From NCBI GenBank assembly GCA_019638595.1, contig JAHBTJ010000036.1, positions 1-42,924 on the forward strand: a stretch of DNA of 42,924 nucleotides. Direction: 5' to 3'. This DNA comes from Chitinophagaceae bacterium (GTDB lineage: Bacteria; Bacteroidota; Bacteroidia; Chitinophagales; Chitinophagaceae). Positions within the stretch are counted from its first letter, which is position 1; each line of letters starts with the position of its first letter. The position numbers and the translations under genes were made by a program. Below the pieces are notes generated by a model. That model did not search any database. It was not told the origin of the DNA and saw only the letters and a list, made by a program, of their open reading frames with translations. Of the stretch, positions 12,177 to 30,199 are shown one piece after another.

Positions 12177-12611
12177 TTAATCTGTATGAAATACTTCTTC
12201 CATCTCTGTCCATGTTTCTCCTTTTTGGGCAGCTTCCGGCAGCGGTATCTGGCAGGGCGCTGTTTCCCGCCACCATCGCTGGGTAGTCGTATCCGAAGCT
12301 ATCTTCTTCATATCGGCTTCGTAATCTTTTCCAACGTATTCATAATGGCTAAAGAGATAAAAAGCGGTATCGATCTGTTTCAGGTAGATCGTATAATTCC
12401 GGATATTGGCTTCACTGATCTTTTTCAACACACCTTCCCAGGTAGCTGCATGCAATTCTTTATAATAGGCTATCTTGTCCGGGCGAATGCCAGTAACCAT
12501 ACCCACCCTTTTTACCGGGTTTTGCGGCGGCCCGGCAGGTGGCGCCTGGGATGTACAGCCTGCCAGTAATACAACTGACAACAGCAACAAGCAATATTGA
12601 ATTCTTATCAT
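12177..12611 (-). CDS. RhaM-type sugar mutarotase carried as a lipoprotein
   Basis: A 144-residue protein. Residues 1-19 form a lipoprotein signal with lipobox LLAGC (Cys19), followed by a proline-rich spacer and a RhaM-family domain (PF05336). RhaM enzymes interconvert alpha and beta anomers of L-rhamnose, and some members act on L-fucose. Landmarks include PDKIAYYKELH with the family's Tyr and His, the NYTIYL strand, QRWWRETAP with the Trp pair, and the terminal EVFHTD. The family is normally cytosolic and about 105 residues long, so the lipid anchor is unusual. It would place the enzyme in the periplasm, where sugar is released. It lies between the symporter and a hydrolase gene, with gaps of 20 and 9 bp. 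Confidence 0.8.
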   Translation of the reverse strand: MIRIQYCLLLLSVVLLAGCTSQAPPAGPPQNPVKRVGMVTGIRPDKIAYYKELHAATWEGVLKKISEANIRNYTIYLKQIDTAFYLFSHYEYVGKDYEADMKKIASDTTTQRWWRETAPCQIPLPEAAQKGETWTEMEEVFHTD

Positions 12612-14324: not shown

Positions 14325-16685
14325 TCAAAGCGCATATACAGCTAATCGCAACAACGGTATACCCGGTTGCTTTGATGTGATCCGTAGTCTGACCCTATCT
14401 GTATCTACCGGCACAACAGCCTGTATCCTTTTTCTCCCCACACTGCTGCCAGAAGCGATTTCCTTCCAGGCTCCCTCTACCCAGGCATCCAGTTTATAGG
14501 ATTGAATATGCTGTCCTTTGGCAATATCTTCTTCAAGTTCCAGCCAGCCCGGCTTTTTCTTCCCTTTCCAGCTGATAATCCGTTCTTCACCGGTGGAAAT
14601 AAAGGAAAGGGTTAAGAGGGGCGCCCCAAAAGTGCTTTTTATTTTCTTTCCGAAATCTGCCAGTCTCTGTTGTTCGGCGGGCACAATTACTCCACTGGTA
14701 TCCGGTGTCATGTTGATAAGGAGGTTGGCGCCGCGACCGATAGATTCCAGGTATACTTTCATCAAAAAATCCACACTTCTGAGCGTCTTGTCCGAATCAG
14801 GATACCAGAACCATTTATCGCGCGTATGAATATTTGCTTCCGCGGGCAGCCACCCTGTATTTTCAGGGCCTACCCACATAGATGACCAGTTTTGACCAGT
14901 GACAAGATTGGAAAGCGGGTAGTCTGCCCACCCCTGTTCACTGCCCGACCAACGCACATCGGGACGCGTGCCGCCCATGACTACAGCCTGCGGTTGCAAA
15001 TTATTCACCATCGTTCTAATAGCATCGCCATAGCCGGTGCCCAATCGCCGCATCGTTTTACCATCCATAACATCCCATCCAAACGGATCATAAGCGCCAT
15101 CAAACCATAGATAGTCTATCTGTCCGTAGTTGGTTAACAATTCGCGTAGTTGTTCAACAAATTTTGTAAAATAAGCGTTAACGTCTCCCACTATTTTGCG
15201 CTTTCCCATTGGATCCGGTGTGCTGGTACAGTTCTCATTTTTATCGCCTCCCGATACATACAGCCCGGGTTGCACGCCGTACTTCCTGCAGGCAGCAACA
15301 AACTCTGCCACTACATCTCCTTTGCCATTTTTCCATGGCGACTTCCTTACAGAGTAATCAGTGGTTTTGGTAGGCCACAAACAAAAACCATTGTGATGCT
15401 TAGCAGTAAGCACTACATGCTTCGCACCAAATGAAACCGCCGTTTTTACCCACTGCTCTGCATCCAGTTTTGAAGGGTCAAATACACTGACATCAGGAAC
15501 CGTCATAAAATCCGAGGCCATATACGCAGCAGGACCAAAATGTATAAACGCGCCCAATTGGCGTTGCTGAAATTCCAGTTGCTGAGGAGTAGGCTTATCG
15601 GTATGTTTAAACAGCGGGACGTTTTCTTTTGTAACATCTCCATCGGGGGCAATGAGTACAGGCGTCCAGTTGCCCTGGTGAACAGGGGTTTTGTTCACTG
15701 CATTCATATCTGCAAAAAAATGTTCAAATAATTCCCGGGGAGTTCCTTTGTATGTCGCCCACTGCAGATCGCCTGCCGTAGTTTGATCGCTGCCGGTAAA
15801 GTATAATATGGTTTGACCTTTGTAATAACACAACTCAACATCAGACGCATTGCTTTCCGGGGTTCCCGGATCAATCAAAGGTATATTGCGAACAGAAGGA
15901 TCGAAAGTTACAAATGGCCGGCTGGCCGGCGCGTCTTCCCAATTCACCAGATCTTTCGACCGGGTGATCCGGGTTTCGTAACCCATTTTAATGTGTTCAA
16001 GATACAATGTATAATACCATTCTCCTTCATAATACAAGGCAGGTCCTCCTACGTACTTTTCTTTACCATACACAGCGCCGGGAATTTCTTTCCAGTTTAC
16101 CAGGTCATCCGACGCTACATAACGAAAAGTAAAAGGCTTCCAGGTAGGGTCGTTGGTTTCGTACAACAATATAAATTTGTCTTTTCCCCTGCAAACAGTG
16201 GTATTGAAAAAAAACTCTTTTGGATTAGCTTTCAGAACAGTTACCGGCTTACTCCAGTTTGTAAGATCGGAAGAACTGGTCATCGTTATCTCTGTCATTT
16301 GACGCCAGGGTTTACCTTCCCCATAATTGCCGGCAAATATGTATACCGTATTATTGTATACCAGCACCGTTCCAAATCCATGATTTTTCAAAGCAACGGA
16401 AATAAGCTTACCAGTTTCCACATCCCGTATCCTTATCTCATCTTCATGAAAATGATCTCCCGGTTTCGCCCCTTTTACATCCCAGAAACGCTGGTTGCTT
16501 TCCATGAGGTATAACCGGTCATTAAAAACAAAAGGAGATGATTCTACCAGCGGAGAGCCTAAACGCCCTTGCTTAGCAATGGGATTTTTCCAGGTATCCT
16601 GTGCCGTTACACCGGAGACAGTTAAAATACCGAAGCATAGCAGATATATCCATTGTAATCCATTTTTTCGCTTCATATGCGTCAT
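14325..16685 (-). CDS. Beta-propeller / GH29 alpha-L-fucosidase fusion protein
   Basis: This is a 786-residue secreted protein as annotated. After the signal peptide (ending SGVTAQ) comes a five-bladed-propeller-like part resembling GH43/GH32 folds at about residues 32-330, with repeats such as SSSDLTNWSKP, ASDDLVNWKEI and RSKDLVNWEDA. From about residue 370 a GH29 alpha-L-fucosidase follows: LGAFIHFGP, LTAKHHNGFCLWPT, and IDYLWFDGAYDP with the catalytic nucleophile Asp529. A C-terminal beta domain ends the chain. An ATG at 16730 lies upstream of the predicted promoter element at 16708-16717, so the start is placed at 16685; 16676 is also possible. It is the first gene of the operon running down to lutA. 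It should release L-fucose from glycans. Confidence 0.88.
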   Translation of the reverse strand: MTHMKRKNGLQWIYLLCFGILTVSGVTAQDTWKNPIAKQGRLGSPLVESSPFVFNDRLYLMESNQRFWDVKGAKPGDHFHEDEIRIRDVETGKLISVALKNHGFGTVLVYNNTVYIFAGNYGEGKPWRQMTEITMTSSSDLTNWSKPVTVLKANPKEFFFNTTVCRGKDKFILLYETNDPTWKPFTFRYVASDDLVNWKEIPGAVYGKEKYVGGPALYYEGEWYYTLYLEHIKMGYETRITRSKDLVNWEDAPASRPFVTFDPSVRNIPLIDPGTPESNASDVELCYYKGQTILYFTGSDQTTAGDLQWATYKGTPRELFEHFFADMNAVNKTPVHQGNWTPVLIAPDGDVTKENVPLFKHTDKPTPQQLEFQQRQLGAFIHFGPAAYMASDFMTVPDVSVFDPSKLDAEQWVKTAVSFGAKHVVLTAKHHNGFCLWPTKTTDYSVRKSPWKNGKGDVVAEFVAACRKYGVQPGLYVSGGDKNENCTSTPDPMGKRKIVGDVNAYFTKFVEQLRELLTNYGQIDYLWFDGAYDPFGWDVMDGKTMRRLGTGYGDAIRTMVNNLQPQAVVMGGTRPDVRWSGSEQGWADYPLSNLVTGQNWSSMWVGPENTGWLPAEANIHTRDKWFWYPDSDKTLRSVDFLMKVYLESIGRGANLLINMTPDTSGVIVPAEQQRLADFGKKIKSTFGAPLLTLSFISTGEERIISWKGKKKPGWLELEEDIAKGQHIQSYKLDAWVEGAWKEIASGSSVGRKRIQAVVPVDTDRVRLRITSKQPGIPLLRLAVYAL

Positions 16686-16734: not shown

Positions 16735-16772
16735 CCAATAGAATATAAGTGGATAAGGATGGATTATCCTAT
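16735..16772 (-). promoter_or_regulatory. Predicted AraC-family operator before the GH29 operon
   Basis: On the coding strand: ATAGGATAATCC, 13 bases, then TATATTCTATTGG. It lies wholly in the gap between the TIM-barrel gene stop (16788) and the GH29 start. It shares its layout and 17 invariant bases with the sites at 27488, 28224 and 29204. The direct repeat ATAATCCAT / ATATTCTAT has a 21 bp period. The last bases contain TTG, which can serve as the -33 element. Confidence 0.75.
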
Positions 16773-16787
16773 GACAAGCAGGCATTA

Positions 16788-18878
16788 TCACGGACCAGAT
16801 ACGATCAGCACCATTTCCCATGGCGCGATTTTGGGTACTACAAACTTCCTGTATACCCCGTCTGAACCGGAGGCTTTTACTTTTACGGCTTCTCCGTTCA
16901 TATCATACAGCAGTGCGATATCGGAATCTGACCTGAGCATGACCGTTAGCTCCAGAGCCGGATCAAATGAACTGTTGGTAACTGCCATTGCTACCTTTCC
17001 TTTTCCTGTATTGCGTATCCAGCAGTTTGCTTTATGAAACGAAGCAATATAGCCCGGCAACCGGTCCCTGCCCAACCACCGGAATATATTCTTAATCTGA
17101 GCAGACTTGGATTGACTGCCCATATAACTCCACGGATAATATCCTGCTACGCATATCCTGCCGCCCAGAGTATTTTCAAATAATCCCATAGTTGCAGAAG
17201 CCTGTTTTTTTCCACTATAATCAACCAGGTAGGCCAGCGTTTCTGCTCCCGGCTGTACCGGACGTAGTCCGTACGCCGCTTCCCTATAGAAAGATTGACG
17301 GTTGTCCCGCTTACGACCGGCAAAAGACATATTGATCGAATGATGCGTGAATTGCTCAATCCGGTCTCTCATGCTGGTATCGCTCACTTCAAAACCTGTT
17401 AGTGCGCCGTAACCTAATTTATTAAGTTGTTCCAGCGCAGGCACATCCATATAAACAGCCCCGGACAAAAGCTTCCGGATAGCACTGTCATTCAGTGTGT
17501 AAATGTTATTCCCTGTAAGCATTGTTATAGTTGCGTTACCGTAGTTATAACAGGCAGGTATGCCTATATCGTATTGTTCGGGCCGTATTACGGGATTTGC
17601 ACTACCCGGCCAATCCTCCTGCAATCTCACCGTTATAAAACTACTCCGGTCCCAAACAACCGAAGCTCCGTCCAGGGGCTTGTCTCCGAGTTCCGCTACA
17701 AGACGATCCAAAAAAGGCCTCGTATTTTTCAATTTTTGAAGCAATGGCTCATATTCGTCCAACGGTTCATCATAAAATGACAATACATTGAAGGCCACCC
17801 CGGTACAACCGGCAGCAATATGCGACGCAGCCTCTAATGCAGTAATAGAAGCAGCTTTCTTAAGGCGCTGATAAGGAAAATTTTCAATCTCAGCCTGTAT
17901 TAGCGATACTTCCGGCGGAAGCATGGCAACCTGTCTTCCGATATCATGAGATTTGCCAGCCAGTTCAGCAGTTTGACCATCCTGATAATAACCGCCCCCC
18001 GGGCGCCACCACACTTTTGCTCTATTATTACCAGACAAGGTACGTGCCCACCTATCGAAATCGTATCCTTCGTAAAACCTGTCACCTGTCATAAATCCAA
18101 GTATCATATCCGGGGCCATGCTATGCACTTCTGATTCTATCAGCAGGAATAACCTGTTAATGGTATTCCGGTTATGGTTCAACCACGCCTCCCGCCAGCG
18201 TAGCTTATCTTTTTGATTACCGCTTGCAAATACTTTTGCTAACTGAGTCCTCGACCATTTCATTTGAGTTTCAGTTTCGAAAATTGACAGGCAGTTATCA
18301 CAAAAACAGGTAAAGCCTACAGGCATGTGCCCGGCTAAGCGAATATCATCATCAATCCAGATATAATCCGGGTTTGCCTGCACTGCGAAACGGTAAATGT
18401 TACGGATATATTCCCTGAACCTCCTGTCATTGGGGCAGTAAGAACCTCTCGACACCCTGCCACTGATATCTGTTACGTATGTATACTGCCCTTGCAGAGA
18501 ATGCTCAAGATTTTCCTCGTGATGTCCTATCGTACTCAAGATATTAATTCCGGTTTGATATCCGCGGGCACGGGTTTGTTCCATACGTTTTTTGAGCAAT
18601 GTCATCCTGTATGAAAAATCTTCGAGACTCAAAGGTGAATGTGTTGAAGAGGAAAAAAATGTGACCTGATCAGTTACTCCCTGATATTTATCCAGTAAAT
18701 TCAAAAGGTCTTCAAACCGCCGGTCCGACATCCATGCATCTGTACCAATGCGAAAGCTGATGCTGGACTTCTGCACAGCTCGTGATGTTTGAGCTATGCC
18801 TATGTTACTGTATATAAAAAGGCTTGCAATTATGCATACACTCGTGTAAAAAAACATTCCTGAACAATGCCTGCGCAT
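16788..18878 (-). CDS. Putative secreted TIM-barrel glycoside hydrolase, family unassigned
   Basis: A 696-residue protein with a signal peptide ending near SNIGIAQ. The N-terminal 380 residues look like a TIM barrel: YQTGINILSTIGHHEE, NPDYIWIDDDIRLAGH with a cluster of acidic residues, and CFCDNCLSIFE, a paired-Cys motif seen in GH42-like and hypothetical glycoside hydrolases. Then come SLIQAEIENFPYQ and a more Rossmann-like C-terminal region with a small beta domain. I recognise no named GH family with confidence. It is the last gene of the susC operon, 3 bp after the GH95-like gene. By location it should act on the same glycan, in the periplasm or at the surface. Confidence 0.55.
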   Translation of the reverse strand: MRRHCSGMFFYTSVCIIASLFIYSNIGIAQTSRAVQKSSISFRIGTDAWMSDRRFEDLLNLLDKYQGVTDQVTFFSSSTHSPLSLEDFSYRMTLLKKRMEQTRARGYQTGINILSTIGHHEENLEHSLQGQYTYVTDISGRVSRGSYCPNDRRFREYIRNIYRFAVQANPDYIWIDDDIRLAGHMPVGFTCFCDNCLSIFETETQMKWSRTQLAKVFASGNQKDKLRWREAWLNHNRNTINRLFLLIESEVHSMAPDMILGFMTGDRFYEGYDFDRWARTLSGNNRAKVWWRPGGGYYQDGQTAELAGKSHDIGRQVAMLPPEVSLIQAEIENFPYQRLKKAASITALEAASHIAAGCTGVAFNVLSFYDEPLDEYEPLLQKLKNTRPFLDRLVAELGDKPLDGASVVWDRSSFITVRLQEDWPGSANPVIRPEQYDIGIPACYNYGNATITMLTGNNIYTLNDSAIRKLLSGAVYMDVPALEQLNKLGYGALTGFEVSDTSMRDRIEQFTHHSINMSFAGRKRDNRQSFYREAAYGLRPVQPGAETLAYLVDYSGKKQASATMGLFENTLGGRICVAGYYPWSYMGSQSKSAQIKNIFRWLGRDRLPGYIASFHKANCWIRNTGKGKVAMAVTNSSFDPALELTVMLRSDSDIALLYDMNGEAVKVKASGSDGVYRKFVVPKIAPWEMVLIVSGP

Positions 18879-18881
18879 ACG

Positions 18882-21566
18882 CTAAAATTGTTTGGGTATT
18901 CCAATCTGCACTTTTCCCGAGGAATGAAACCTGGCTGCCTGACAGGGAAATGGATTTTCTTCTGTTACCTCCCAGTTGATCGTTTCATAAGCCACGGGCA
19001 GCAATAGCAGCCCATCCCCTTTTTTAATTGTGATCTCCAGCATTTCTTCCTCTCCCCTGATTTTTTCTTTCTTTTTCTCACTCCAGCCAAAAGCCCGGGT
19101 CCATGGGTTTTTTATCCGGCATTGTGTTCCCCAGAGACTTTTGACAAAAATCCAGGCAACAGTGCCGCTTTTTATTTCAGTGCTTATCATAAAACCACCC
19201 TCAGCATGCAGGGTACATCGTGCGTTCTGTTTTTCATGCGCAGCAGCGCCTACAACAATTACACCATTGCAACTTTGTACAACAGCTTCATTCATAGCTG
19301 CAGTCATTACACACATTGATTCCATAGACATATGCCTGAAGGGCCACATAGGAAGTGAAAACTTTTCTCTATCCTTAAAGCGCGTATCCGATACTTTATT
19401 GGTCCTGAAAAACATTTCTGCGTCCTTGTTGATCTCACCTTCTACTCCCCAATGTCCCCAACCATTGGGATAGATTTGCCAGCGGGCAGGGAAAACATCC
19501 AGTGTTTTTTGCAAGGCTTCTTTCATTCCCAGTCTTGCCATTACAACCGGTACCGGATCCCAGCCTGTTATGCCCGGGCCGTATAACAACATGGAACTGC
19601 GCATTACATCCATTAAAAATTTTTCTTCCTTTTCTTTGGCTACAGAAAGTTTACCCGATGGGAAAACAGGAGCGCTGGGAACAGAGGGAAATATGCCATC
19701 CAGTAATTTCATTCCAAAATACCTACCCTCGGGATGAGGGCTATATGTGTTTAGCAACCGGTTTTCTTTGATATCCCAGCCTGCGGCCACCACCTGGTCT
19801 GATGGAATTGCAGCACCCTTAAAAAAGCCATAGTCCAATTTTCTTTCTCCGGAAGAACGCTTTAATACATGAGAGGGTACCGAAACTACCGGAAGAGGTG
19901 AAAGGTGATTAATAATATCTTCCCAATGAGCAAGTTTAGGATGTTGCAAACCAGCTTCCTTAAACACATTGATTGCCGTGCGGAAAAGCACATCGGCGTA
20001 TACCAGTTCCGTAAGCCCGTCCCTGAGTAAAATCCATCCCTCATATCCGGAACCTTCGCGGGCATGATACTTCCCATCCGGTTCTTTTACCAACAACGAT
20101 TCATAAAATATGGCAGCTTCTGTAACAAAGGGCACTACCTTATCTTTTAAAAATTGTTTGTCGCCGGTATACCGGTAGTGCCTCCAGAAATCAAGTGCTA
20201 TTTCAGCAACAGGCGTATGGTTGTGGGATTCATTTGTTGAATTAAAGCCACGTCGTTCCGTTACATCAGCTATATACGCACCTGCCGATCTGAACAAACG
20301 TGCAGCATCGGCTTTGGCCTGCGGTAGCGAACGAAACCGGTAATTAAGATAGGGAACTGCCAGATCATGATGCCCTGCGGCTTGCAAAGGCCAATACAAC
20401 TGTTGCTGGTTCCAGTGAAAATAAAAATTCCAGTTTTGCACATCCCTGTTCCATGCCCACAATCCGTTGTTGAACCGTCCCGGATATTTACCACCCTGGC
20501 AGCACAAGCTATAATACATGGTCAGGTGCCAAAGATGGTTAAGATAGGCATCACCATAATCTAAAAAACTGCGCATCCATACATCTTTCCATTTTTTTAT
20601 GTGACGATCCCTCCGGGCATCCGGAGACAGCTGCTGAACCCCGTCCAGTAATAATGCTGCTGCCACCCTGCTATCATCAGCAACCGGAGAGGTAACTGCA
20701 ACGCCTATACGTAAATTAAGTTGCCTTCCTTTGGGAATTTCAATCACACCTCTCCGTGAATGCTCACGTATGTACCGGGTTCCTTCCGGCATTTCGGAAA
20801 GCACCCGTACGATCGTTGTGAAATTCAGATCGTTCAGCTGTTGTGTGATCATTAACCCTTCCTCATCTGCTGTAGTGGAAGTACCGGAAGTGCCAATAAA
20901 CGCATCTCCGTTGATTTGTGAATACCAGTGTGAATAGGTCCGGGATCCAAATCTTTCCAGTGCTATTTCAACCGGGCTGTCTTCCTCAAAATCTGTTTTC
21001 ATGTCTATAAATAATAAACCCGAATCTTTCTCTATAAAAAAATCCAGGTTGATTTTCCCAAAAGGTGAAGAAGCAGTCAACCCCGAACAAGCTTCAGCAA
21101 TGGAAAGCCTTGCAGAAAATTCAGTCAGAAAAAGAGTACTGAACAATGGATATTTGAAATCAATAATAAACCGTCCTGCATGCCGAAGTGTTGTGCTGAT
21201 ATCTTCCTGGTCTTTATTCCAATTGCCGAAAGAACCGAAAGAAGCGTCTTCCCATAAATCTGATTTGTTCAAAGCAATGATGATCTTTGACTCTTCACAC
21301 CATATCAACGCTGTAACCTCACCGTTACCCAGCGCGATTCCCTGTAAGGGATCTACCGGCGGACTTTCATACACAAGGTCATACTGTGAAATCCTGCCGG
21401 GCCATTGAATATACCACACTTCTTTTTGCAAATCAAAACAGGACTGAATGGAGTTTGATTTATTGTTGGGTATTGCGGCGGCCGATAAAATAGAAGGCAG
21501 CGGTATACCGGATGCTACCGCCGCCATCCCCATCAATCGAATAGCCCCTCTTCTTGAAGTTGTCAT
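18882..21566 (-). CDS. GH95-like (alpha/alpha)6-barrel protein with Tat-type signal
   Basis: An 894-residue protein. The start is the ATG at 21566, which gives MTTSRRGAIRLMGMAA, a twin-arginine export signal. A longer form from 21608 would need a TTG and would overlap the previous gene. The N-terminal part has PLQGIALGNGEVTALIW, like the GH95 beta-sandwich. The middle part carries LWAWNRDVQNWNFYFHWN and then YWP, corresponding to the GH95 catalytic-site helix. GH95 enzymes remove terminal alpha-1,2-L-fucose or L-galactose. At the usual Asn-x-Asn pair this protein seems to have His384-Trp-Asn386, so activity or specificity may differ. It is longer than usual (about 750-820). It starts 16 bp after the free propeller gene. 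Confidence 0.6.
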   Translation of the reverse strand: MTTSRRGAIRLMGMAAVASGIPLPSILSAAAIPNNKSNSIQSCFDLQKEVWYIQWPGRISQYDLVYESPPVDPLQGIALGNGEVTALIWCEESKIIIALNKSDLWEDASFGSFGNWNKDQEDISTTLRHAGRFIIDFKYPLFSTLFLTEFSARLSIAEACSGLTASSPFGKINLDFFIEKDSGLLFIDMKTDFEEDSPVEIALERFGSRTYSHWYSQINGDAFIGTSGTSTTADEEGLMITQQLNDLNFTTIVRVLSEMPEGTRYIREHSRRGVIEIPKGRQLNLRIGVAVTSPVADDSRVAAALLLDGVQQLSPDARRDRHIKKWKDVWMRSFLDYGDAYLNHLWHLTMYYSLCCQGGKYPGRFNNGLWAWNRDVQNWNFYFHWNQQQLYWPLQAAGHHDLAVPYLNYRFRSLPQAKADAARLFRSAGAYIADVTERRGFNSTNESHNHTPVAEIALDFWRHYRYTGDKQFLKDKVVPFVTEAAIFYESLLVKEPDGKYHAREGSGYEGWILLRDGLTELVYADVLFRTAINVFKEAGLQHPKLAHWEDIINHLSPLPVVSVPSHVLKRSSGERKLDYGFFKGAAIPSDQVVAAGWDIKENRLLNTYSPHPEGRYFGMKLLDGIFPSVPSAPVFPSGKLSVAKEKEEKFLMDVMRSSMLLYGPGITGWDPVPVVMARLGMKEALQKTLDVFPARWQIYPNGWGHWGVEGEINKDAEMFFRTNKVSDTRFKDREKFSLPMWPFRHMSMESMCVMTAAMNEAVVQSCNGVIVVGAAAHEKQNARCTLHAEGGFMISTEIKSGTVAWIFVKSLWGTQCRIKNPWTRAFGWSEKKKEKIRGEEEMLEITIKKGDGLLLLPVAYETINWEVTEENPFPCQAARFHSSGKVQIGIPKQF

Positions 21567-21582
21567 ATGGCTTTCACAAAAA

Positions 21583-22533
21583 TTAATGTACTGCTGAAAC
21601 CTGCTCAAATTTCGCAGATCCCGGAAAACAGGACTCGAAGAACAGTTTCATATCACCATCAAATAAAGCAACTCTTACCGTACCCCAGGTTTCCTGGTCG
21701 CCGGTGGCATAAAAAAGATACGTTTTTCCATCCACTTCAATCAGGTCAACATCAGAATTATTTTTTCCTTCTCCTTTTCCGGCTTCCAGTATAGGATTGA
21801 AAGGACTTAGCTCCCAGGTCTTCAGATCTTTTGATCTTGCCATGTAAGATATCCATCCGTTGTGTTCGGGAACAGGTGCATGCAAATAGATAACATAATA
21901 CCACGGGGCGAAATACCTGATTACCGGGCAGGCAGCGTACTCCTTTTTACGACCGGTAAACGCAAGTCCTTTTATCTTTTCCCAGTGCCTGAGATCGGTT
22001 GAGCGTGCAAACTTATAACAAAACTGTACCGGGTTATCCGACTCGTAGGCCATGATATAACCTTTGTCGTCTTTACATACTGAAGAATTAAAAAGGCGCT
22101 CCCCGCCTTCGGGTTGTATCGCAACAGCTTGTTTCCATGACTTCAGATCTGTACTATAAAAATGATTAATAGACGAGGAGTTCATGATCCGTCCAAAGTT
22201 TTTAAACTCCAAAGCATATACATGCAGCACACTGTCTTCAGAAAAAGCTGTTACAAAGGAATGTCCCTTCCCAAACCTGGTCACTTCATTTCCATTCTGC
22301 AGATCCTCAATATAGAGATAGGCGTCGTCTCCTTTCGCCTCCGCTCCACCTGGCCTGTAATTAGACACCAGCAACAAAACGGAGTCGAACCATACCGGTG
22401 TATTTTCCATGGGCGTACGGTCAGCCTGTGGAAAAGCAAATGGCAGTTTAGTGAGCCTGGGTGCAGTTTGGGCCTTTACACAATAGCCTGCACTCAAGGC
22501 AAACATTACCAATACATATCTTATCATGATCAT
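21583..22533 (-). CDS. Secreted single-domain beta-propeller (GH43/GH32-like)
   Basis: A 316-residue protein with a signal peptide ending near GYCVKAQ. The rest reads as a five-bladed propeller with blade motifs STDLKSWKQAV, RSTDLRHWEKI and RSKDLKTWELS, and NNSDVDLIEVDGKTYLFYATGD near the end. It resembles the N-terminal half of the GH29 fusion protein, including a NxSDV segment, so the two are probably paralogous. Family members hydrolyse or bind plant and host glycans; the catalytic Asp/Glu set could not be assigned by eye. It lies 14 bp after susD and 16 bp before the GH95-like gene. It is probably periplasmic or surface-exposed. Confidence 0.6.
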   Translation of the reverse strand: MIMIRYVLVMFALSAGYCVKAQTAPRLTKLPFAFPQADRTPMENTPVWFDSVLLLVSNYRPGGAEAKGDDAYLYIEDLQNGNEVTRFGKGHSFVTAFSEDSVLHVYALEFKNFGRIMNSSSINHFYSTDLKSWKQAVAIQPEGGERLFNSSVCKDDKGYIMAYESDNPVQFCYKFARSTDLRHWEKIKGLAFTGRKKEYAACPVIRYFAPWYYVIYLHAPVPEHNGWISYMARSKDLKTWELSPFNPILEAGKGEGKNNSDVDLIEVDGKTYLFYATGDQETWGTVRVALFDGDMKLFFESCFPGSAKFEQVSAVH

Positions 22534-22547
22534 GAACTTTCAATGGC

Positions 22548-24050
22548 TCAATATCCATCATTCTGCTTTAACTCAGGGTTGTTATCCAACTCAGCCTGCG
22601 GAAACGGGAACTTGTAATGCTTTTGTTCAAATACCAGGTGAACTCCTCCCGGATTTACGATAGTGGGCAATTTAGTATGTGCAATGCCCCAGCGCTTGAT
22701 ATCAAAATAGCGATGTCCTTCAAGCGCAAGTTCTACTCTTCGTTCATGCCTTATAAATTCCCGGAGCTTTTCTTTCGTATTATATTTTGCCCGATCTACC
22801 GGAGGCATATTTACGCCGGGCCTTGAACGAATTTCGTCGAGTGCATCATAAATGCCTGCATCGGGGCCAGTGTCTTCGTTCTTAGCTTCCGCATACATTA
22901 GCAGCACATCTGCATAACGGATGGAAACCATATCCTGGTCAGAATCAGTTTTGGCATAACTGAAAGGCGCATGTGAAAAATCGGCATACTTTCTCATTAC
23001 ATAACCAGTCTGTCCCGGATGCTGCGGTTCCGGCCAGGCTTCTTCGGCTACACGGCGCATATTCAAAACCAATCTGGGGTCTCTGTTAGCGAAAGGCGTC
23101 GTCGGGTTGTATAGCGGGGACTCTGATATACTCAGTCCGTCAGTACACTCAAATTCATCTACCAAATCCTGGTAAGGATTAATACAACCATACCAGCCAA
23201 TTTGAACGTCCATGCTTTCGGTAAAAGCAGTGGGATTGGTAGGTCCAAGGTATTGTGTAGAAAAAATGATCTCGGGATTACCGCCCTGTGTTGCCGTTAA
23301 GAATATTCCCAGGTAATTATCCGCGATCGAAAACTTACCCGACTGTATTGTTTGAAGCGCATACGAAGCGGCTTCCGGCCATTTTTGCTCGTATAAAAGT
23401 ACTCTTGATTTAAAAGCAGTAGCACTGCCTTTAACCGCATGCCCCGCATAAGCCACCTCGGGCAGCGAACCGATCGCTGCATCAATATCTTCGTGAATAA
23501 ATGCCAGCACTTCTGCTTTGGAGCTCTTTGCGATCTTTGCTGCGTCCGCACTTTCAGGAGTCTCCCGGTAAAGGATCACATCTCCAAAAAAATCTACCAG
23601 GTCAAAATACATCATCGCTCTTAAAAATCTGACTTCTCCCTTGTATACTGCTATCTTATCTGCTTCTATCGGAACCTTATCAACATTTTCCAGGAAGTAG
23701 TTACAATTAGCTATTCCCCGGTAAGGTGTATAATAAGCCATATTCACGGCTCCTCCTGAAGTTGGACTGGTCACCCCTATCGTCATAGCCGGCATATTAA
23801 AATATCCCCATTCTGCGAATGCATTATCAGAAAGACAATCCAGCCATACCCGGCGGTAGCTTAAAAAATCGGACTGTAATTGCCTGTAACACCCGGCTAA
23901 GGCCATTTTAACGTCGTCTTCGGTTTGCCAGAAAGTGCCACTTGATATCTGATCCAAAGGATTGCGATCCAGGAAGCTCTTTTTGCAAGCCGTAAAGGAG
24001 ACCAGCAACGCAATCGCTATTATCATCCGCATCCTATATAAAAGTTTCAT
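22548..24050 (-). CDS. SusD/RagB family glycan-binding lipoprotein
   Basis: A 500-residue protein with a lipoprotein signal and lipobox SFTAC (Cys22), then KKSFLDRNPLDQISSGTFW, the standard SusD N-terminus. TPR-rich helices follow, with AYMTPYRGIANCNYF-type and VRFLRAMMYFDLVDFFG segments. The C-terminal SusD signature is GHRYFDIKRWG. SusD sits on the cell surface, captures oligosaccharide and lids the SusC barrel. It starts 19 bp after susC, so the two are co-transcribed and form one uptake complex. Downstream hydrolases suggest a fucosylated ligand. Confidence 0.95.
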   Translation of the reverse strand: MKLLYRMRMIIAIALLVSFTACKKSFLDRNPLDQISSGTFWQTEDDVKMALAGCYRQLQSDFLSYRRVWLDCLSDNAFAEWGYFNMPAMTIGVTSPTSGGAVNMAYYTPYRGIANCNYFLENVDKVPIEADKIAVYKGEVRFLRAMMYFDLVDFFGDVILYRETPESADAAKIAKSSKAEVLAFIHEDIDAAIGSLPEVAYAGHAVKGSATAFKSRVLLYEQKWPEAASYALQTIQSGKFSIADNYLGIFLTATQGGNPEIIFSTQYLGPTNPTAFTESMDVQIGWYGCINPYQDLVDEFECTDGLSISESPLYNPTTPFANRDPRLVLNMRRVAEEAWPEPQHPGQTGYVMRKYADFSHAPFSYAKTDSDQDMVSIRYADVLLMYAEAKNEDTGPDAGIYDALDEIRSRPGVNMPPVDRAKYNTKEKLREFIRHERRVELALEGHRYFDIKRWGIAHTKLPTIVNPGGVHLVFEQKHYKFPFPQAELDNNPELKQNDGY

Positions 24051-24069
24051 ACTTTACTTTTTAAAAGAT

Positions 24070-27000
24070 TTAGAATTTAACATCAATACCAAAATTCAAA
24101 ATGCGAACCTGCGGGAACTGAGCATACCGCCCCCAACCGCCGATCGTACTACCTGTTCTGGACAATGTTTCAGGATCCGCTCCTTCAAATTTGGTAAAGG
24201 TGAGCAGGTTATCTCCGGAAACATATACAGTGACGCCTTTTGACCATATCTTATCCGTTACACGCTTAGGCAATGTATAAGACAGGTTTACATTTTTCAA
24301 ACGCAGGTAGGAAGCATCCTGCAGATAATAGGTAGATGGATAAGCCGATACTCCTCCATAGGTCCACGACTCGTATATAGCGGGAACAGTATTGCTGGGA
24401 TTGGTAGGGCTCCATGCATCCCTGAACTTTGTAGTGGGTGGAGTACCCTGGATAAAAGGATCAATCCCCCATCCGTTCAGCGGCATTTTGTTACCTTTCG
24501 TACCCTGGAAAAAAGCACTAAGCGCAAACCCTTTCCAGGAGGCATTCACTCCGAAGGAATACGTAAAATCGGGGAATATTCCCTTGATCGTTTTGCGATC
24601 CTCTGCATTTACAACACCATCTCCATTCTGATCTTTTATTTTCAGATCACCGGGACTTGGAGGAAAAAACGGTTGTTCGGGAGATTTATCAATATCATCC
24701 TGGCTTTGAAAAATCCCAATCCACTCATACATGTAATAAGATCCATAAGGTAACCCTACTTCATTCACTCCTTTAGTGGGTACTCTTATTTTCAGCAGCT
24801 TATTTTTAAATGTGCTGAACAAAACATAAGCGCCATAATTGAAATCACCGACCTGGTTGTTGTGACGTAACTGGACTTCCCAACCTATATTTTGCAGCTT
24901 CCCGTCATTAGTAACCGGGCCACTTAATCCAAGACTTCCGGGAACAGGCTGAGAAGTAAGAATGTCAAATGTATTTTTCTTAAACCAATCAAGGGTGAGC
25001 CCAAACAAGCCCCTTGCTACTTCCAGGTCCATTCCAACATTAACTACCCGCGTAGACTCCCATTTAATATTCTTGTCTGTTAAGCGCGTTACAACAGTTG
25101 CCGCCTGCAAGGCAGATCCGTAAGGATATTCAGAAAGTGTGAGAATATCCTGGTAAGGATATAACCCGATCTCCTGGTTACCCAGTGTACCCCAGGAAGC
25201 ACGGATCTTCAAATCATCCAGCCACTTCACATTATCCTGAACAAATGATTCTCTTGAGATCCTCCATCCGGCTGAAACCGAAGGGAATGCACCCCAACGG
25301 TTATTACTGGCAATCCGGGAACTTCCATCATAACGTAAATTTCCTTCCAGCAAATATTTTCCATTGAAGTCGTAGTTAATTCGTCCAAAATAGGACCGTA
25401 ATGCCCACTCGGTAGCCGTACCCGAAAGACTCTGGCCTGTAGGAGACCCCGCATTGATCTCTGCCAAAGAGGGTGTAGGGAAAGTAAGCCGTCCTCCCTG
25501 CAAAAATTGAGTTTTGAATGACTGCTGCTCGTAACCTGCCAATACCTTCAGGTTGTGGTATTTTTCTAAAACGGTTTCGTAGTTAAGCGTAGAAAATACA
25601 GAAGGAAGTACATTTTGGGAATAGCGATCGGTTACACCGCCGCTTTTCCCGCCATCGTCAATATAAGGATAATCCGTAGCGCCCTCCGGCTTGAGATAAG
25701 CATATTGGTTTACTACCTGCTGATGGCTCTTATATGTTTCTCCATTATAGTTAAATCCTCCTTTTACCTGCCAAACCAATCCCTTCAGCAGTTGTACATC
25801 TATGTAGCCCTGTGCATTTATGCCATGCAAATTGGTGTGCTGATAATTGCCGGGATGTAAATCTGTTTCGGGATTTCTGTTATGTCCTTCGTTTGCATAT
25901 GCATAACGCGCTATACGTCCGCTGCCATCGGGAAGAAAAGGCATAAAATTAGGTGAGCCCTGGTATACCAGCAGAACAACATCACTGTTCACATTCCTCG
26001 GCTCTGCAATTCTTTTTTTCACCATATTAATAACAGTACCCACTTTCACCCTTTTGTTTACCAGGGAATTTATGTTGATAATGGCATTGTATCTTTTATA
26101 GTTAAATACTGGCAATACACCGTCCTGGTCGAGATATCCGAGAGATATGCTGTAGTTGGTGCGCTCGTTACCTCCTGAAAACCGCAGGTTGTGATTAATA
26201 ACCGTAGCAGGATTGAAATAGTGATCTGTCCAGTTGAAATTAGGATACTGAACAGGATCAGAAGGATTTTTGTATGCATCAATCTGCTCCTGCGTGTACA
26301 GGGGCGGTAAACCCACCCTTTCTTTCGCCGCATTGTACATTGTCATATATTCTACAGAATTGTATATAAAGTCTGGTAACCTCGTAGCAGTATGTGAACC
26401 GATATCCACACGATATTCCAACAGCGGAGCACCTTGTCTGCCGCGTTTGGTGGTCACCAGTATCACTCCGTTAGCAGCACGGGAACCATAGATAGCAGCC
26501 GAAGCGGCGTCTTTTAATACGGACACACTTTCAATATCATTTGGATTCAGGTTAGTGATCGATCCTATCAAGCCATCTACCAACACAAGCGGATTGGATG
26601 ATGCGCCAAACGAGCCCAATCCTCTTATCTGGAATTGCGGGTCGTCGCGCCCCGGAGAAGCAGTAGGTTGAATCACCTGCAATCCGGTAACCCTTCCCTG
26701 TAAAAGATTCGCGGCGTTGGTAGCCGGCCGTTCCACGAGTGTACTTCCTCCTACCGTAGCTACTGAGCCTGTAAGGTTGATTTTTTTCTGTGTTCCATAA
26801 CCTACCACCACCACATCAGACAAAGTACCCTGCTCCTGTTTAAGCTCAACAATCATAATGCCTGAAGCCGGTACCTGCCGTTCCAAAGTTTGCATCCCTA
26901 TGTAGCTAAACACCAGCACCGCACTGCTACCGGGAACATTTATACTAAATGACCCGGTTGCATCTGTAGTAGTATAAGTAGTTTGCCCCTTAACCTGCAC

Positions 27001-27264
27001 CGTAACACCTTCCAAAGGCAGGCCTCCTTCATTGGTTACTTTGCCTGTTATAGAAAGATTGGATTGCATTTGTTGTAAAATATATTTACCTGTAGCGTCA
27101 TTGCCATTTGTAAAAGCTGGTAATAACAATAATGTAGGCAAAGCAATAAAAGTAAATGATATAGCAAGCCCTCTCAGTATACGGGTAAAACAACAGTCGG
27201 CAAACCGAAGACAGGAATGTGAAAAAGGACCTGTCAATTTTTGATTAAGAAATAAATTCTCCAT
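24070..27264 (-). CDS. SusC/RagA family TonB-dependent outer-membrane transporter
   Basis: A 1064-residue protein. A hydrophobic signal lies at about residues 32-55. It is followed by a carboxypeptidase-regulatory-like domain (SITGKVTNEGGLPLEG, about 70-145), a TonB-box-like stretch DVVVVGYGTQKK, the plug domain (DDPQFQIRGLGSF, ESVSVLKDAASAAIYGSRAANGVI) and a 22-strand-type barrel ending FGIDVKF. It imports oligosaccharides across the outer membrane using TonB energy, together with SusD. It is the first gene of a five-gene operon reaching 16788. It is preceded by a leader of about 190 bases and the operator at 27488-27525. It is clearly similar to the second SusC at 39872. Confidence 0.96.
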   Translation of the reverse strand: MENLFLNQKLTGPFSHSCLRFADCCFTRILRGLAISFTFIALPTLLLLPAFTNGNDATGKYILQQMQSNLSITGKVTNEGGLPLEGVTVQVKGQTTYTTTDATGSFSINVPGSSAVLVFSYIGMQTLERQVPASGIMIVELKQEQGTLSDVVVVGYGTQKKINLTGSVATVGGSTLVERPATNAANLLQGRVTGLQVIQPTASPGRDDPQFQIRGLGSFGASSNPLVLVDGLIGSITNLNPNDIESVSVLKDAASAAIYGSRAANGVILVTTKRGRQGAPLLEYRVDIGSHTATRLPDFIYNSVEYMTMYNAAKERVGLPPLYTQEQIDAYKNPSDPVQYPNFNWTDHYFNPATVINHNLRFSGGNERTNYSISLGYLDQDGVLPVFNYKRYNAIININSLVNKRVKVGTVINMVKKRIAEPRNVNSDVVLLVYQGSPNFMPFLPDGSGRIARYAYANEGHNRNPETDLHPGNYQHTNLHGINAQGYIDVQLLKGLVWQVKGGFNYNGETYKSHQQVVNQYAYLKPEGATDYPYIDDGGKSGGVTDRYSQNVLPSVFSTLNYETVLEKYHNLKVLAGYEQQSFKTQFLQGGRLTFPTPSLAEINAGSPTGQSLSGTATEWALRSYFGRINYDFNGKYLLEGNLRYDGSSRIASNNRWGAFPSVSAGWRISRESFVQDNVKWLDDLKIRASWGTLGNQEIGLYPYQDILTLSEYPYGSALQAATVVTRLTDKNIKWESTRVVNVGMDLEVARGLFGLTLDWFKKNTFDILTSQPVPGSLGLSGPVTNDGKLQNIGWEVQLRHNNQVGDFNYGAYVLFSTFKNKLLKIRVPTKGVNEVGLPYGSYYMYEWIGIFQSQDDIDKSPEQPFFPPSPGDLKIKDQNGDGVVNAEDRKTIKGIFPDFTYSFGVNASWKGFALSAFFQGTKGNKMPLNGWGIDPFIQGTPPTTKFRDAWSPTNPSNTVPAIYESWTYGGVSAYPSTYYLQDASYLRLKNVNLSYTLPKRVTDKIWSKGVTVYVSGDNLLTFTKFEGADPETLSRTGSTIGGWGRYAQFPQVRILNFGIDVKF

Positions 27265-27460
27265 ATACAGTTAAATTTTTAGTGAAAAAATTTTCCATCC
27301 ATGCCTCGTAAAGGCACAGAACTTCGTAATACGGCTATCAATAGTCGGTAAATTCAGTTCATTGATGGTGTAGCATGAAATCCGGTTGCTATAGTTCCCT
27401 GAAGGCAACCGCTTTAAAATTCATTACATGTAAAGAAATATTCCTGCCGTGGCTATGAAG
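27265..27460 (-). other. Long untranslated leader of the susC operon with hairpins
   Basis: From the predicted promoter element (27461-27470) to the susC start there are about 190 bases without a gene. They contain an inverted repeat CGGTTGC/GCAACCG (27383-27389 and 27405-27411, 15-base loop) and a short hairpin TGCCT/AGGCA at 27302-27316. The other operator-linked genes have leaders of about 10-30 bases, so this one stands out. No known riboswitch was recognised. Confidence 0.4.
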
Positions 27461-27470
27461 TAAAATTCTA
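27461..27470 (-). promoter_or_regulatory. Predicted weak -7 element of the susC operon
   Basis: It reads TAGAATTTTA on the coding strand, the same ten bases and the same 17 bp distance to the operator as before the GH29 operon. Confidence 0.5.
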
Positions 27471-27487
27471 CAATTGAAACCCGGTAA

Positions 27488-27525
27488 CCAATAGAATATA
27501 TGCTTATCTTACTGGATTATTCTAT
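27488..27525 (-). promoter_or_regulatory. Predicted AraC-family operator before susC
   Basis: On the coding strand: ATAGAATAATCC, 13 bases, then TATATTCTATTGG. The second half is identical in all 13 bases to that of the GH29 site, while the 13-base spacers differ, as expected for a bound motif rather than a copied sequence. It lies between the lutC stop (27554) and the susC leader. Confidence 0.75.
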
Positions 27526-27553
27526 TATCGTATTTTTTTACTCATTTATTCAT

Positions 27554-28183
27554 TCATTCTTTTATCAGCAATACAAACACGTCTTTAGGTCCGTGTACGC
27601 CCATTACCAAAGTTTTTTCTATATCGCCTGTACGGCTGGGGCCAGCGATGAAGTGTAATGAGGATGGCAGGTTGTCTTCATATTTTCCCTGCAAAAAAGA
27701 AATAGCATTTCCGGTATCATATAGCAATTGACTAACATTGGCTATCACTATATGAACCGGGGCGTATACAGGCAGCGCCCGGCCTGATGATTGCCCAGCA
27801 CTCAGTACAACAGAGCCTGTTCTTGCAACCAGGCATTCACAATCGGTTAAGGCTACCTCAGCCTGCAACACATCGTTTACCAGCGAAATGCCTGCCTGCT
27901 GAAGGACCGGGATAAGCTCCGGAACCGTGCAATACCATTGACCGTGCAGTAAGGATGGCGGAAATTGTGTTAAAAAATCTGGCACACTATTCATATTGTT
28001 ACAACTAAAAAAAACTCCCTGCAGCCGGGTAAAAGACCGTTCGAACAATTCGACATTTGAGCCCGGTTCCCGGATAAAAAAATCACCGGTTGTACCAGTG
28101 TAATTAATTTCCGGCTCTGCCTCATTTTTATTTGTGAGGGCGGCTTTTATTAATTCTAATACCAGATCGCGGGAATCGCTCAT
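27554..28183 (-). CDS. lutC: LutC-type LUD-domain protein of L-lactate oxidation
   Basis: A 209-residue protein made up mainly of one LUD domain. Landmarks are DCECLVARTGSVVLSAGQSSGR, the VYAPVHIVIA strand and LHFIAGPSRTGDIEKTLVMG near the C-terminus, followed by VHGPKDVFVLLI. LutC is the third component of the L-lactate oxidation complex LutABC. It stands apart from lutAB (8030-10155), with two glycan operons in between, but all are on the same strand and share the operator motif. The start ATG at 28183 lies 14 bp after a GAACTTTG -7 element. A gap of 289 bp to susC contains a further operator, so lutC is probably its own transcript. Confidence 0.9.
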   Translation of the reverse strand: MSDSRDLVLELIKAALTNKNEAEPEINYTGTTGDFFIREPGSNVELFERSFTRLQGVFFSCNNMNSVPDFLTQFPPSLLHGQWYCTVPELIPVLQQAGISLVNDVLQAEVALTDCECLVARTGSVVLSAGQSSGRALPVYAPVHIVIANVSQLLYDTGNAISFLQGKYEDNLPSSLHFIAGPSRTGDIEKTLVMGVHGPKDVFVLLIKE

Positions 28184-28197
28184 ACAGAAACTTTACG

Positions 28198-28205
28198 CAA
28201 AGTTC
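28198..28205 (-). promoter_or_regulatory. Predicted -7 element of lutC
   Basis: It reads GAACTTTG on the coding strand, a near match to TAnnTTTG. It lies 18 bp after the end of the operator at 28224-28261, and its distance to the ATG predicts a very short leader. Confidence 0.5.
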
Positions 28206-28223
28206 TCCAATAACAGGTATAAA

Positions 28224-28261
28224 ACAATGGAGTATTGCCCATCAGCAATGGATAATCGTAC
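28224..28261 (-). promoter_or_regulatory. Predicted AraC-family operator before lutC
   Basis: On the coding strand: GTACGATTATCC, 13 bases, then AATACTCCATTGT. It lies in the 96 bp gap between the araC stop (28280) and the lutC start. Its second half is almost the same as in the SDR site (GATACTCCATTGT), with a fully different spacer. It is the most divergent of the four in its first four bases. Confidence 0.7.
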
Positions 28262-28279
28262 GATTTTGCACGTTGATCT

Positions 28280-29197
28280 TTATCCTTTATTCGTCTTTCT
28301 GTATTCAGATGGAGACGTTCCAATGATTTTATTAAAGATGCGGTTAAAAAAATAAGGATCCTCATACCCTACAAAAACAGCAATATCTTTTACCTTCATT
28401 TCAGTAAGGTCGAGTAACTGACAGGCCTTTTGCATTTTTAAATGAATAAAGTAATCCAGGGGAGCAAAGCCTGTTTGTTTCCTGAATAAGCTTGAAAAAT
28501 GAGAGGCGGAATAAGAAAACTTTCCCGCAATATCATCTATCCATAATCGCTGCCCGAGATTTTCACGCATATATAATATAGCCTGCGTAATGATATTATC
28601 ATCTTTTTTCTGGAAGCTGGAAAAATTATGATTGCGAAATATAAAAGAAGCAATGAAATGGTAAAGGCAAAAATTAGCGTAACTCAGGTTGTCCAGGCTG
28701 TAACCCATCTCAAGGGTGTTGTACATTTCTTCCCATAAGCTGATCCTCCTTTCATCAGGGCGTAGAACAGTAGGAGTTAAAAACTGATCCAATTCATATA
28801 CGCGGTTGAAATGTGGAATTTGCGTACCGCAAAAATGAACCCAGTACAAAGACCATGGATCGTCGGCATTCGCTCCATAACGCAGATACTTATCCGTAGC
28901 AGGTAAAATAACAAACTCATTAGCCTTTATTTCGCAATACCCCGACTTGTTTTCGTACCATCCTTTACCATCAATACAGTAAAATAGAATATTGTCATTG
29001 CATCCCCATCTGCGCTCTCTATAATGGTAAGATGCTTTAGGAAAATACCCGATCAGGGTGATGTAAAGATTGTTAAGCAAAGGGTCATTTTGTATCCGCT
29101 CTCTCAACAATTTCTCGGGCAATATAATTTGCTTCTCCCCGGTAAAGCCGTCGCGTTTTCTTATGGCAAGTCCTTTATATCTTTTTTCAGCGATCAT
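28280..29197 (-). CDS. AraC-family transcriptional regulator of the fucoside locus
   Basis: A 305-residue protein with an N-terminal AraC-type cupin sensor (about residues 50-170: CIDGKGWYENKSGYCEIKAN, LYWVHFCG) and a C-terminal double helix-turn-helix (about 210-303: LWIDDIAGKFSYSASHFSSLF, then VKDIAVFVGYEDPYFFNRIF and SPSEYR). Such proteins bind a small sugar and activate transcription from direct-repeat sites. Four matching sites lie nearby, two of them directly flanking this gene (28224-28261 and 29204-29241). The latter starts 7 bp from its own start codon, so it may also control itself. L-fucose or a related product is the inferred ligand. It is divergent from the SDR gene. Confidence 0.93.
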   Translation of the reverse strand: MIAEKRYKGLAIRKRDGFTGEKQIILPEKLLRERIQNDPLLNNLYITLIGYFPKASYHYRERRWGCNDNILFYCIDGKGWYENKSGYCEIKANEFVILPATDKYLRYGANADDPWSLYWVHFCGTQIPHFNRVYELDQFLTPTVLRPDERRISLWEEMYNTLEMGYSLDNLSYANFCLYHFIASFIFRNHNFSSFQKKDDNIITQAILYMRENLGQRLWIDDIAGKFSYSASHFSSLFRKQTGFAPLDYFIHLKMQKACQLLDLTEMKVKDIAVFVGYEDPYFFNRIFNKIIGTSPSEYRKTNKG

Positions 29198-29203
29198 ATA
29201 ATA

Positions 29204-29241
29204 ATAGGATTATCCATTAAAGTAAACTGATACTCCATTGT
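29204..29241 (+). promoter_or_regulatory. Predicted AraC-family operator between araC and the SDR gene
   Basis: It reads ATAGGATTATCC, 13 bases, then GATACTCCATTGT on the strand of the SDR gene, so its orientation toward the SDR gene is the same as at the other three promoters. It ends 19 bp before the GTACTTTG -7 element. It also lies next to the start of the divergent araC gene, where bound protein could block araC transcription. Confidence 0.75.
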
Positions 29242-29286: not shown

Positions 29287-30051
29287 ATGTTGCTTAAAGA
29301 TAAAGTATTATTTCTCACAGGCGGGTCAAGTGGCATTGGACTGGAATGTGCAAAAGCTTACACAAAGGAAGGCGCAATACTTGCAATAGCAAGTAACAAC
29401 CAGAAAGAACTGGACAGATTGGCGCAGGAGCTGGATAACCTACGCTATATTCCCCTGTATTGTGATGTATCCTCGGAAACAGATGCGCAAAATGCAATAC
29501 AAAAAACACTTGATATGTTCGGGAAGCTGGATGCCATCCACAACAATGCAGGCATCGTTACCCCTTCGGCTATGCTGCATGAAACCACTACTGAAGAGTG
29601 GCACAGGCTTATGGATGTTAATCTTAAAAGTATTTATTTAACAACAAAATATGGACTCGAAGCCCTGCGTAAAACCGGGGGAAGCATTTTGAATACAAGC
29701 AGCCTGGCAGGACATATTGGCCAGGAAATGCATGCAGCATATACTGCCACAAAAGGGGGGATCAGCGCGCTTACCAAATCCATGGCGCTGGACTACGCGA
29801 AATACCGGATACGGGTAAACGCAGTTTGCCCGGCCTGGGTAAAAACTCCTGCCGTACAATCCTGGGTTGAAGATCAGGAAGACATCCGGTCAGCAGAAGC
29901 CTATATAAATTCCATTCATCCTCTGGGATACTGTCCAGAAGGGGATGTAATAGCAGACGCATGTGTATTTTTATTATCCGATAAGGCACGTTTTATTACA
30001 GGATGTACCATGCCGGTAAGCGGCGGCGCCGAGCTTGGGTACAGACGATAG
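29287..30051 (+). CDS. SDR-family dehydrogenase, probable L-fucose or 2-keto-3-deoxy-fuconate dehydrogenase
   Basis: A 254-residue classical short-chain dehydrogenase/reductase. It has the nucleotide-binding motif TGGSSGIG (11-18), NNAG (86-89), and the catalytic Ser139, Tyr152 and Lys156 (YTATKGG), and uses NAD(P)H in the cytoplasm. In the non-phosphorylating L-fucose pathway, SDR enzymes catalyse both the first step (L-fucose to the lactone) and the oxidation of 2-keto-3-deoxy-L-fuconate. The last route ends in pyruvate plus L-lactate, which would explain the linked lut genes. Which step, or another substrate, cannot be told from sequence. It is divergent from araC and has the same operator as the glycan genes. 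Confidence 0.8.
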   Translation: MLLKDKVLFLTGGSSGIGLECAKAYTKEGAILAIASNNQKELDRLAQELDNLRYIPLYCDVSSETDAQNAIQKTLDMFGKLDAIHNNAGIVTPSAMLHETTTEEWHRLMDVNLKSIYLTTKYGLEALRKTGGSILNTSSLAGHIGQEMHAAYTATKGGISALTKSMALDYAKYRIRVNAVCPAWVKTPAVQSWVEDQEDIRSAEAYINSIHPLGYCPEGDVIADACVFLLSDKARFITGCTMPVSGGAELGYRR

Positions 30052-30174: not shown

Positions 30175-30199
30175 TTTCCGGTGTATATTTCCGGTGTAT
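30175..30199. repeat. Two tandem copies of a 12-base repeat at the SET gene start
   Basis: TTTCCGGTGTAT occurs at 30175-30186 and 30188-30199. The second copy runs into the start codon of the SET-domain gene (30198), so the repeat covers the position of a ribosome site. Confidence 0.6.

Follow-up and report, generated by a model that had tools for sequence, protein, structure and literature searches.

Four putative AraC-type operators at a SusCD/fucosidase locus with lactate-oxidation genes in a Chitinophagaceae bacterium

Introduction

Activators of the AraC family usually bind direct repeats adjoining a promoter. At pBAD of Escherichia coli, the half-sites araI1 and araI2 carry a TCCATA box, are spaced by 21 bp, and overlap with the -35 element; AraC contacts RNA polymerase from the promoter-proximal site and activates transcription. 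Here we consider four sites of comparable layout in a soil-type Chitinophagaceae bacterium, on contig JAHBTJ010000036.1 (C30), which was analyzed as one entire stretch of 42,924 nt (below, the window; all positions are counted along it) and belongs to a genome of 7,056,364 bases in 52 contigs. The sites precede genes for glycan uptake and hydrolysis and for lactate oxidation, and a gene for an AraC-type regulator lies between two of them.

Arabinose-dependent activation from araI1/araI2 is described for E. coli pBAD in a portion of PMC4760080. For 16 Bacteroides regulators of the hybrid two-component system (HTCS) type, the relevant part of PMC3878776 gives direct-repeat motifs averaging 21 bp, and a 21-bp periodicity is given for AraC-family rhamnose regulators in an excerpt of PMC3870299; hence, the geometry itself is not new. 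In Algoriphagus marincola HL-49 (Bacteroidetes), the oxidative L-fucose pathway is present in part, without the dehydratase FucD, according to a section of PMC5507952. The motif, the gene set, the fusion of operator and promoter, and the regulon considered below were not found described in the literature searched, a body that leaves most subscription journals outside its coverage.

Results

Sites and their exclusivity

The sites follow the pattern RTASRATWATCCA-N13-ATAYTCYATTG, with 24 defined bases (Table 1). All four are located and oriented as in the original prediction, both when read in the sequence and when matched by the pattern, which confirms that they are real. The predicted invariance of 17 of 25 positions also stands, the count being that of the prediction's own consensus; two further invariant positions in the window sites are the next base (A of TCCA) and a T two bases upstream of the motif. 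The direct repeat with a 21-bp period holds in part: TCYAT-21 bp-TCYAT is exact in three of the four sites, while the far half of the susC site reads TCCAG.

Without mismatch, the pattern is matched four times in the window, whereas 100 shuffled versions of it average 0.00 matches. With up to three mismatches allowed, the whole genome yields the same four matches, all in this 12.5 kb, and the reversed-pattern control yields none; a wider regulon in this genome is ruled out at that threshold. A looser, 19-base core is matched four times at 0 mismatches, never at 1 or 2, and 23 times at 3 (control total, 9); among these 23 matches, the one on contig C40 adjoins a paralogue of the regulator gene.

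Conservation in related genomes

The nearest regulators in named genomes are those of Chitinophagaceae bacteria ACE_BAC13 and ACE_BAC12 (98%) and Sphingobacteriales 44-15 (94%); the regulator of Agriterribacter humi YJ03 is somewhat more distant (88%), as is that of an uncultured bin (87%). The source bacterium probably belongs to Agriterribacter or close to it. The sites of the SDR (short-chain dehydrogenase/reductase), lutC, and susC genes are present with 0-3 mismatches in all six genomes of the group, the window included, and the site of GH29 (glycoside hydrolase family 29) is kept in all four genomes covering that stretch; the L085 and L086 stretches end before it. In the five relatives, the lutC site has 0-3 mismatches (three in G028, inside the cluster) and the susC site 0-1, whereas the GH29 site has 0-1 in L082, G123, and G028. 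Site 4 lies 5-7 bp from the AraC start, with 0-2 mismatches, in L082, L083, L084, L085, and L086; the L086 contig does not extend to the SDR gene. Two congeners have five pattern matches each, four of them inside the cluster, and both outside ones have three mismatches. The spacers differ from site to site and are mostly conserved from genome to genome.

The neighboring genes are less stable. The order GH29-symporter-mutarotase-GH-lutB-lutA is retained in G123 and G028; ACE_BAC13 has no block of GH43, GH95, and 696-aa protein genes between susD and site 1; G123 has an extra GH2-type gene and a rhamnosidase-like gene; and G028 has a gene for a 976-aa protein after lutC. As the sites stand before the same genes while their neighbors change, the sites outlive the cassettes.

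Separately, we observed that two relatives have different additional genes between lutC and site 2: a GH2-type gene (L062:14788-18030) and a gene for the 976-aa protein with a weak TIM-barrel match (L064:15490-18420). The lutC gene is far more variable than its neighbors: its identity is 62% in 44-15 and falls to 41-44% in A. humi and the bin, against 87-94% for AraC in these three. This looks like replacement of the gene behind an operator that was conserved. The 696-aa protein (16788-18878) is at 51% in G123 and 74% in G028.

Association of sites with the regulator clade

The family sample comprised 147 genomes, 44 of which have a relative of the regulator at E<=1e-40 (68 matches); 30 of the 68 were taken as loci. 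A 50%-identical relative (G124) has two sites with two mismatches. One lies before a GH3 gene and is overlapped by the first possible start of that reading frame; the other precedes the gene of an SDR (63%), after which comes GH29. For a 48%-identical relative (G103), a two-mismatch site precedes susC, and a four-mismatch site is found 68 bp upstream of a GH95 gene. Behind this GH95 gene stand genes for an enolase-superfamily, fuconate dehydratase-like protein, a symporter (SSF, 69%), and an SDR (58%).

Across the 30 AraC loci, TCYAT pairs occur 13 times at a distance of 21 bp; the other distances between 8 and 60 average 1.1 pairs (sd 1.2). The genus of the window accounts for six of the 13. 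We also searched the 350 bp upstream of each regulator gene for the TCCAT-21-TCYAT core (14 bases), with 3000 coding windows as controls. At <=1 mismatch, the repeat points away from the regulator in 9/30 loci and the other way in 0/30, and is found in 0/3000 control windows; in seven of the nine loci it begins <=20 bp from the estimated regulator start.

Presence of the site follows the regulator tree, which has 34 rows (the 30 loci, three paralogues from the window's genome, and L085); L085 and the C40 paralogue were counted as having the site, and the C6 paralogue, with its five-mismatch site before susC, was not. Three changes are needed, compared with a shuffled mean of 9.6, and 0/500 shuffles are as low, near-copies adding to the clustering. 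A strongly supported clade of 16 rows has no sites. By Fisher's test, upstream repeats occur in 9/14 loci outside this clade and 0/16 within it (p 0.00014), or, by genus, in 6/11 and 0/15 (p 0.0020). In the first recognition helix, three aligned rows of the siteless clade have Arg (SPSRF or SVSRF), while 14/15 others have His (e.g., SASHF), a difference that may matter for the reading of the site.

Promoter geometry

For the promoter comparison, 26 sites with <=3 mismatches were taken from nine sources, of which 20 are non-redundant. In 20/20 of these non-redundant sites, TTT starts 22-24 bases past the motif, compared with 0-7/20 for non-overlapping three-base windows. Bacteroidetes promoter boxes are given as TTTG at -33 and TAnnTTTG at -7 in the pertinent parts of PMC2483708 and PMC9723704. 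Taken together with the observed spacing, these boxes suggest that the closing ATTG of the site probably doubles as the -33 promoter element, being also a part of the half-site, and that TTT is probably the core of the -7 box. The final G of ATTG is T in some of the L085 and L086 sites. Measured against Bacteroidetes sigma-A promoters (TTTG or TTG at -33 and TAnnTTTG at -7), the TTT core is constant, but TA is poorly conserved. Judging by the ATG offsets, the leaders would be short for three of the four genes and about 190 bases long for susC. The susC leader (27265-27465, 201 nt) folds slightly better than shuffled sequences (z -2.11; 7/200 as good).

Genes of the locus

The regulator matches PF12833 at 70.5 bits (cut-off 33.6) and PF00165 in two stretches; its N-terminal sugar-binding/dimerisation domain is a weak match to PF02311 (25.6 bits vs cut-off 21.1). 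With the DNA-binding domain of E. coli AraC (2k9s), it scores 47 bits. A Pfam scan of the 305-aa protein found AraC domains only, and no sensor, kinase, or receiver domains. The predicted transcription unit of site 2 is susC-susD-GH43-like-GH95-like-696-aa protein, and that of site 1 is GH29-symporter-mutarotase-fucosidase-like-lutB-lutA, both delimited by common strand and small gaps. All three subunits of the LutABC L-lactate oxidation complex, LutA, LutB, and LutC, are encoded, lutC standing apart from lutBA; the LutC protein has no NCBIfam match at E<=0.001. An RNA element was considered and rejected, an Rfam scan of the window giving 0 matches at gathering scores. Beside the regulon, a small SET-domain protein is encoded at 30198-30626 (Pfam).

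Table 1. Sites and genes of the locus (positions in the window)
Feature	Position	Strand	Remarks
Site 1	16736..16772	-	exact pattern match; precedes GH29-SSF-rhaM-GH-lutB-lutA operon (predicted)
Site 2	27489..27525	-	exact pattern match; precedes susC operon (predicted), ~224 bp from susC ATG
Site 3	28225..28261	-	exact pattern match; precedes lutC
Site 4	29204..29240	+	exact pattern match; precedes SDR gene; left edge 6 bp from AraC start codon
lutA (cysteine-rich CCG domains)	8030..8776	-	PF02754; start by sequence inspection
lutB iron-sulfur protein	8785..10155	-	TIGR00273 456.3 bits, cut-off 444.8
Distant alpha-L-fucosidase-like protein	10158..12167	-	PF01120 28.2 bits, cut-off 25.2
rhaM-type sugar mutarotase	12177..12611	-	PF05336 89.5 bits
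Sodium:solute symporter	12632..14284	-	PF00474; TIGR00813 over cut-off
Alpha-L-fucosidase-like GH29	14325..16685	-	PF01120 140.2 bits; start by inspection, ATG 50 bases past site
696-aa protein	16788..18878	-	last in susC block; no Pfam family at E<=0.001
GH95-like protein	18882..21608	-	PF22124 55.5 bits, cut-off 27
GH43-like protein	21583..22533	-	PF04616 27.7 bits, under its cut-off 32.2
susD-like glycan-binding protein	22548..24050	-	PF07980 164.2 bits
susC-like TonB-dependent receptor	24070..27264	-	PF07715, PF13715
lutC (LUD domain)	27554..28183	-	PF02589 82.1 bits
AraC-type regulator, 305 aa	28280..29197	-	AraC_binding domain and double helix-turn-helix; between sites 3 and 4
SDR dehydrogenase	29287..30051	+	Pfam adh_short_C2; start at ATG kept in relatives

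Fucose catabolism elsewhere in the genome

The expectation that the missing fucose-catabolism genes should bear the site failed: none is found elsewhere at <=3 mismatches, and a candidate cluster on contig C1 has matches with six to seven mismatches only (none below six over 51,001 bases around it). This cluster encodes an amidohydrolase, a RhaT-type transporter, a MocA-type oxidoreductase, an SDR (56% to that of the window), a symporter (67%), two GH95 proteins, and an enolase-superfamily protein (70% to that of G103); its domains suggest an oxidative fucose-like pathway. Two other AraC-like genes lie upstream of it, at 24-28% to the window's regulator over the DNA-binding end. Since the cluster has no site, the window regulon is local, and some other control probably governs the fucose-like pathway.

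The stretch L129 (G000:C1:274000-293900) carries this second, fuller fucose-like cluster, in which the SDR and the symporter are paralogous; two GH95 genes and a pair of MaoC-like genes are close by. Genes of FAA hydrolases occur at four places of the genome, one of them with an internal stop; three of the four neighborhoods (L130, L131, L132) were scanned, giving no site below six mismatches. The fucose isomerase domain PF07881 has 0 matches in this genome (3/14 control genomes match), and the isomerase route was set aside on these grounds.

Discussion

The observed sites, with their exclusivity, conservation, spacing, and promoter-like geometry, are best explained by a local, pBAD-like AraC regulon that would jointly switch the SusCD/fucosidase locus and the three lactate-oxidation genes; we put the probability of this at roughly 85%. 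Binding, ligand, activation, operon extents, and autoregulation are predicted here from sequence. On this view, the AraC-type regulator whose gene lies between sites 3 and 4 would use all four sites as operators. It may bind as a dimer to tandem half-sites 21 bp apart on one DNA face, contact RNA polymerase from the -33 side, and activate transcription in the manner of E. coli AraC at pBAD. The ligand recognized by its N-terminal AraC-type domain would be a sugar released by the fucosidases, with L-fucose or a close derivative the likeliest candidate. The four promoters would then turn on SusCD outer-membrane uptake, the glycosidases, the symporter, the mutarotase, the SDR, and all three lut genes; lutC and lutBA, although in separate transcription units, would be switched together, as both units bear a site. 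Because site 4 is so close to the start codon of the regulator, its occupancy probably also damps the regulator gene.

In the original prediction, a single AraC regulator acting through four sites was to reach also the fucose-catabolism genes elsewhere. The first part is well supported by genome exclusivity, conservation before the same genes, and the link between sites and regulator clade; the reach to the distant genes is not.

Several observations weigh against the proposed regulon. At two mismatches, the upstream-repeat test becomes weak (14/30 loci pointing away, 2/30 the other way, 8.9% of control windows), and it is partly circular, as the core was drawn up after sites had been seen in some of the same loci; moreover, of the 14 AraC loci that do not belong to the siteless clade, five (L036-L040) lack a repeat at <=1 mismatch. 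Outside the genus, 41/47 pattern matches have no listed AraC relative within 10 kb, and G121 has two two-mismatch sites yet no AraC relative at E<=1e-40. The other 6/47 are within 10 kb and include three of the six two-mismatch matches; a fourth two-mismatch match (G030) shares a 6.5-kb contig with an AraC-like fragment (41% over 66 residues). The remaining matches are due to chance or have no explanation; the reversed control produced five matches across all genomes. Finally, none of the four window promoters has the T that opens the TAnnTTTG of the -7 box, a weakness that would suit an activator-dependent promoter.

Cross-talk is a further concern, since the genome has paralogous AraC regulators with similar operators. 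They are found on C6, C40, and C7, those on C6 and C40 being 41-42% identical, and related sites with 4-5 mismatches lie on C6, before susC, and on C40, beside the regulator. It is improbable, although somewhat less so than the other alternatives, that the four sites are read by one of these paralogues, e.g., from C6 or C40, or by an unlinked factor. The paralogue operators have the same 21-bp plan and retain the far ATCCAT half, and both kinds of site occur within one G028 locus; however, they differ at positions 4-5 (AA for SR) and in the proximal half, and the paralogues have loci of their own. Window-type sites and the regulator occur together in all six group genomes, which is not an independent count, as five of the six were found via the regulator.

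A slightly smaller chance is left for sites that repress rather than activate, or that are functionless recent duplicates. An operator across the -33 element could block the polymerase, and site 4 abuts the AraC start codon; on the other hand, direct repeats beside a promoter are the usual layout of AraC activators. Duplication alone is insufficient, given spacers that differ between sites and are largely kept between genomes, and sites that survive gene turnover. Very unlikely is a third explanation, by which the shared sequence is mainly a -33/-7 promoter class of one sigma factor and no activator operator: ATTG and the TTT at 22-24 bases do agree with the published boxes, but the conserved bases upstream of ATTG and the 21-bp repeat exceed a promoter, and a sigma class would be expected to match genome-wide rather than four times.

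The regulon preferred here, of one AraC-type activator at four promoters, gives, at the level of sequence, an operator for a one-component AraC regulator that serves a glycan locus outside Bacteroides. It also names an exact, testable set of four promoters, the genome having yielded no further ones. The hydrolysis of a fucose-bearing glycan is thereby tied to lactate oxidation, which would fit a pathway ending in pyruvate and lactate. A tentative generalization, to which we give somewhat less than even odds, is a Chitinophagaceae-wide AraC subfamily running SusCD loci, with the operator at the regulator start, pointing away from it, and its proximal half fused to the -33 element; paralogues might be kept apart by small changes in the half-sites, and operators might stay fixed while hydrolase cassettes are swapped. 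The wider set of loci provides a way to learn how paralogous glycan regulators avoid cross-talk.

Among described systems, the oxidative L-fucose (fuconate) loci share the SDR with the window; unlike in these loci, the genes for the fuconate dehydratase-like, amidohydrolase, and MocA-type proteins are on another contig without the site. The RhaR regulons of Bacteroides, Bacillales, and Enterococcus control rhamnose catabolism, whereas the window targets are fucosidase-type hydrolases, SusCD, the SDR, and lutABC, motif sequences being no part of this comparison. The Bacteroides HTCS regulators resemble the window's regulator in the AraC-type DNA-binding domain, direct repeats of about 21 bp, and control of susCD loci, as far as described in the same part of PMC3878776; they differ from it in that the 305-aa protein has, by Pfam, no periplasmic sensor, histidine kinase, or receiver domains. 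E. coli AraC is a distant relative, as the score of the DNA-binding domain indicates, and has other target genes; at pBAD it nevertheless presents the same arrangement, that of a one-component regulator with the same domain plan and tandem half-sites, the proximal one at the promoter.

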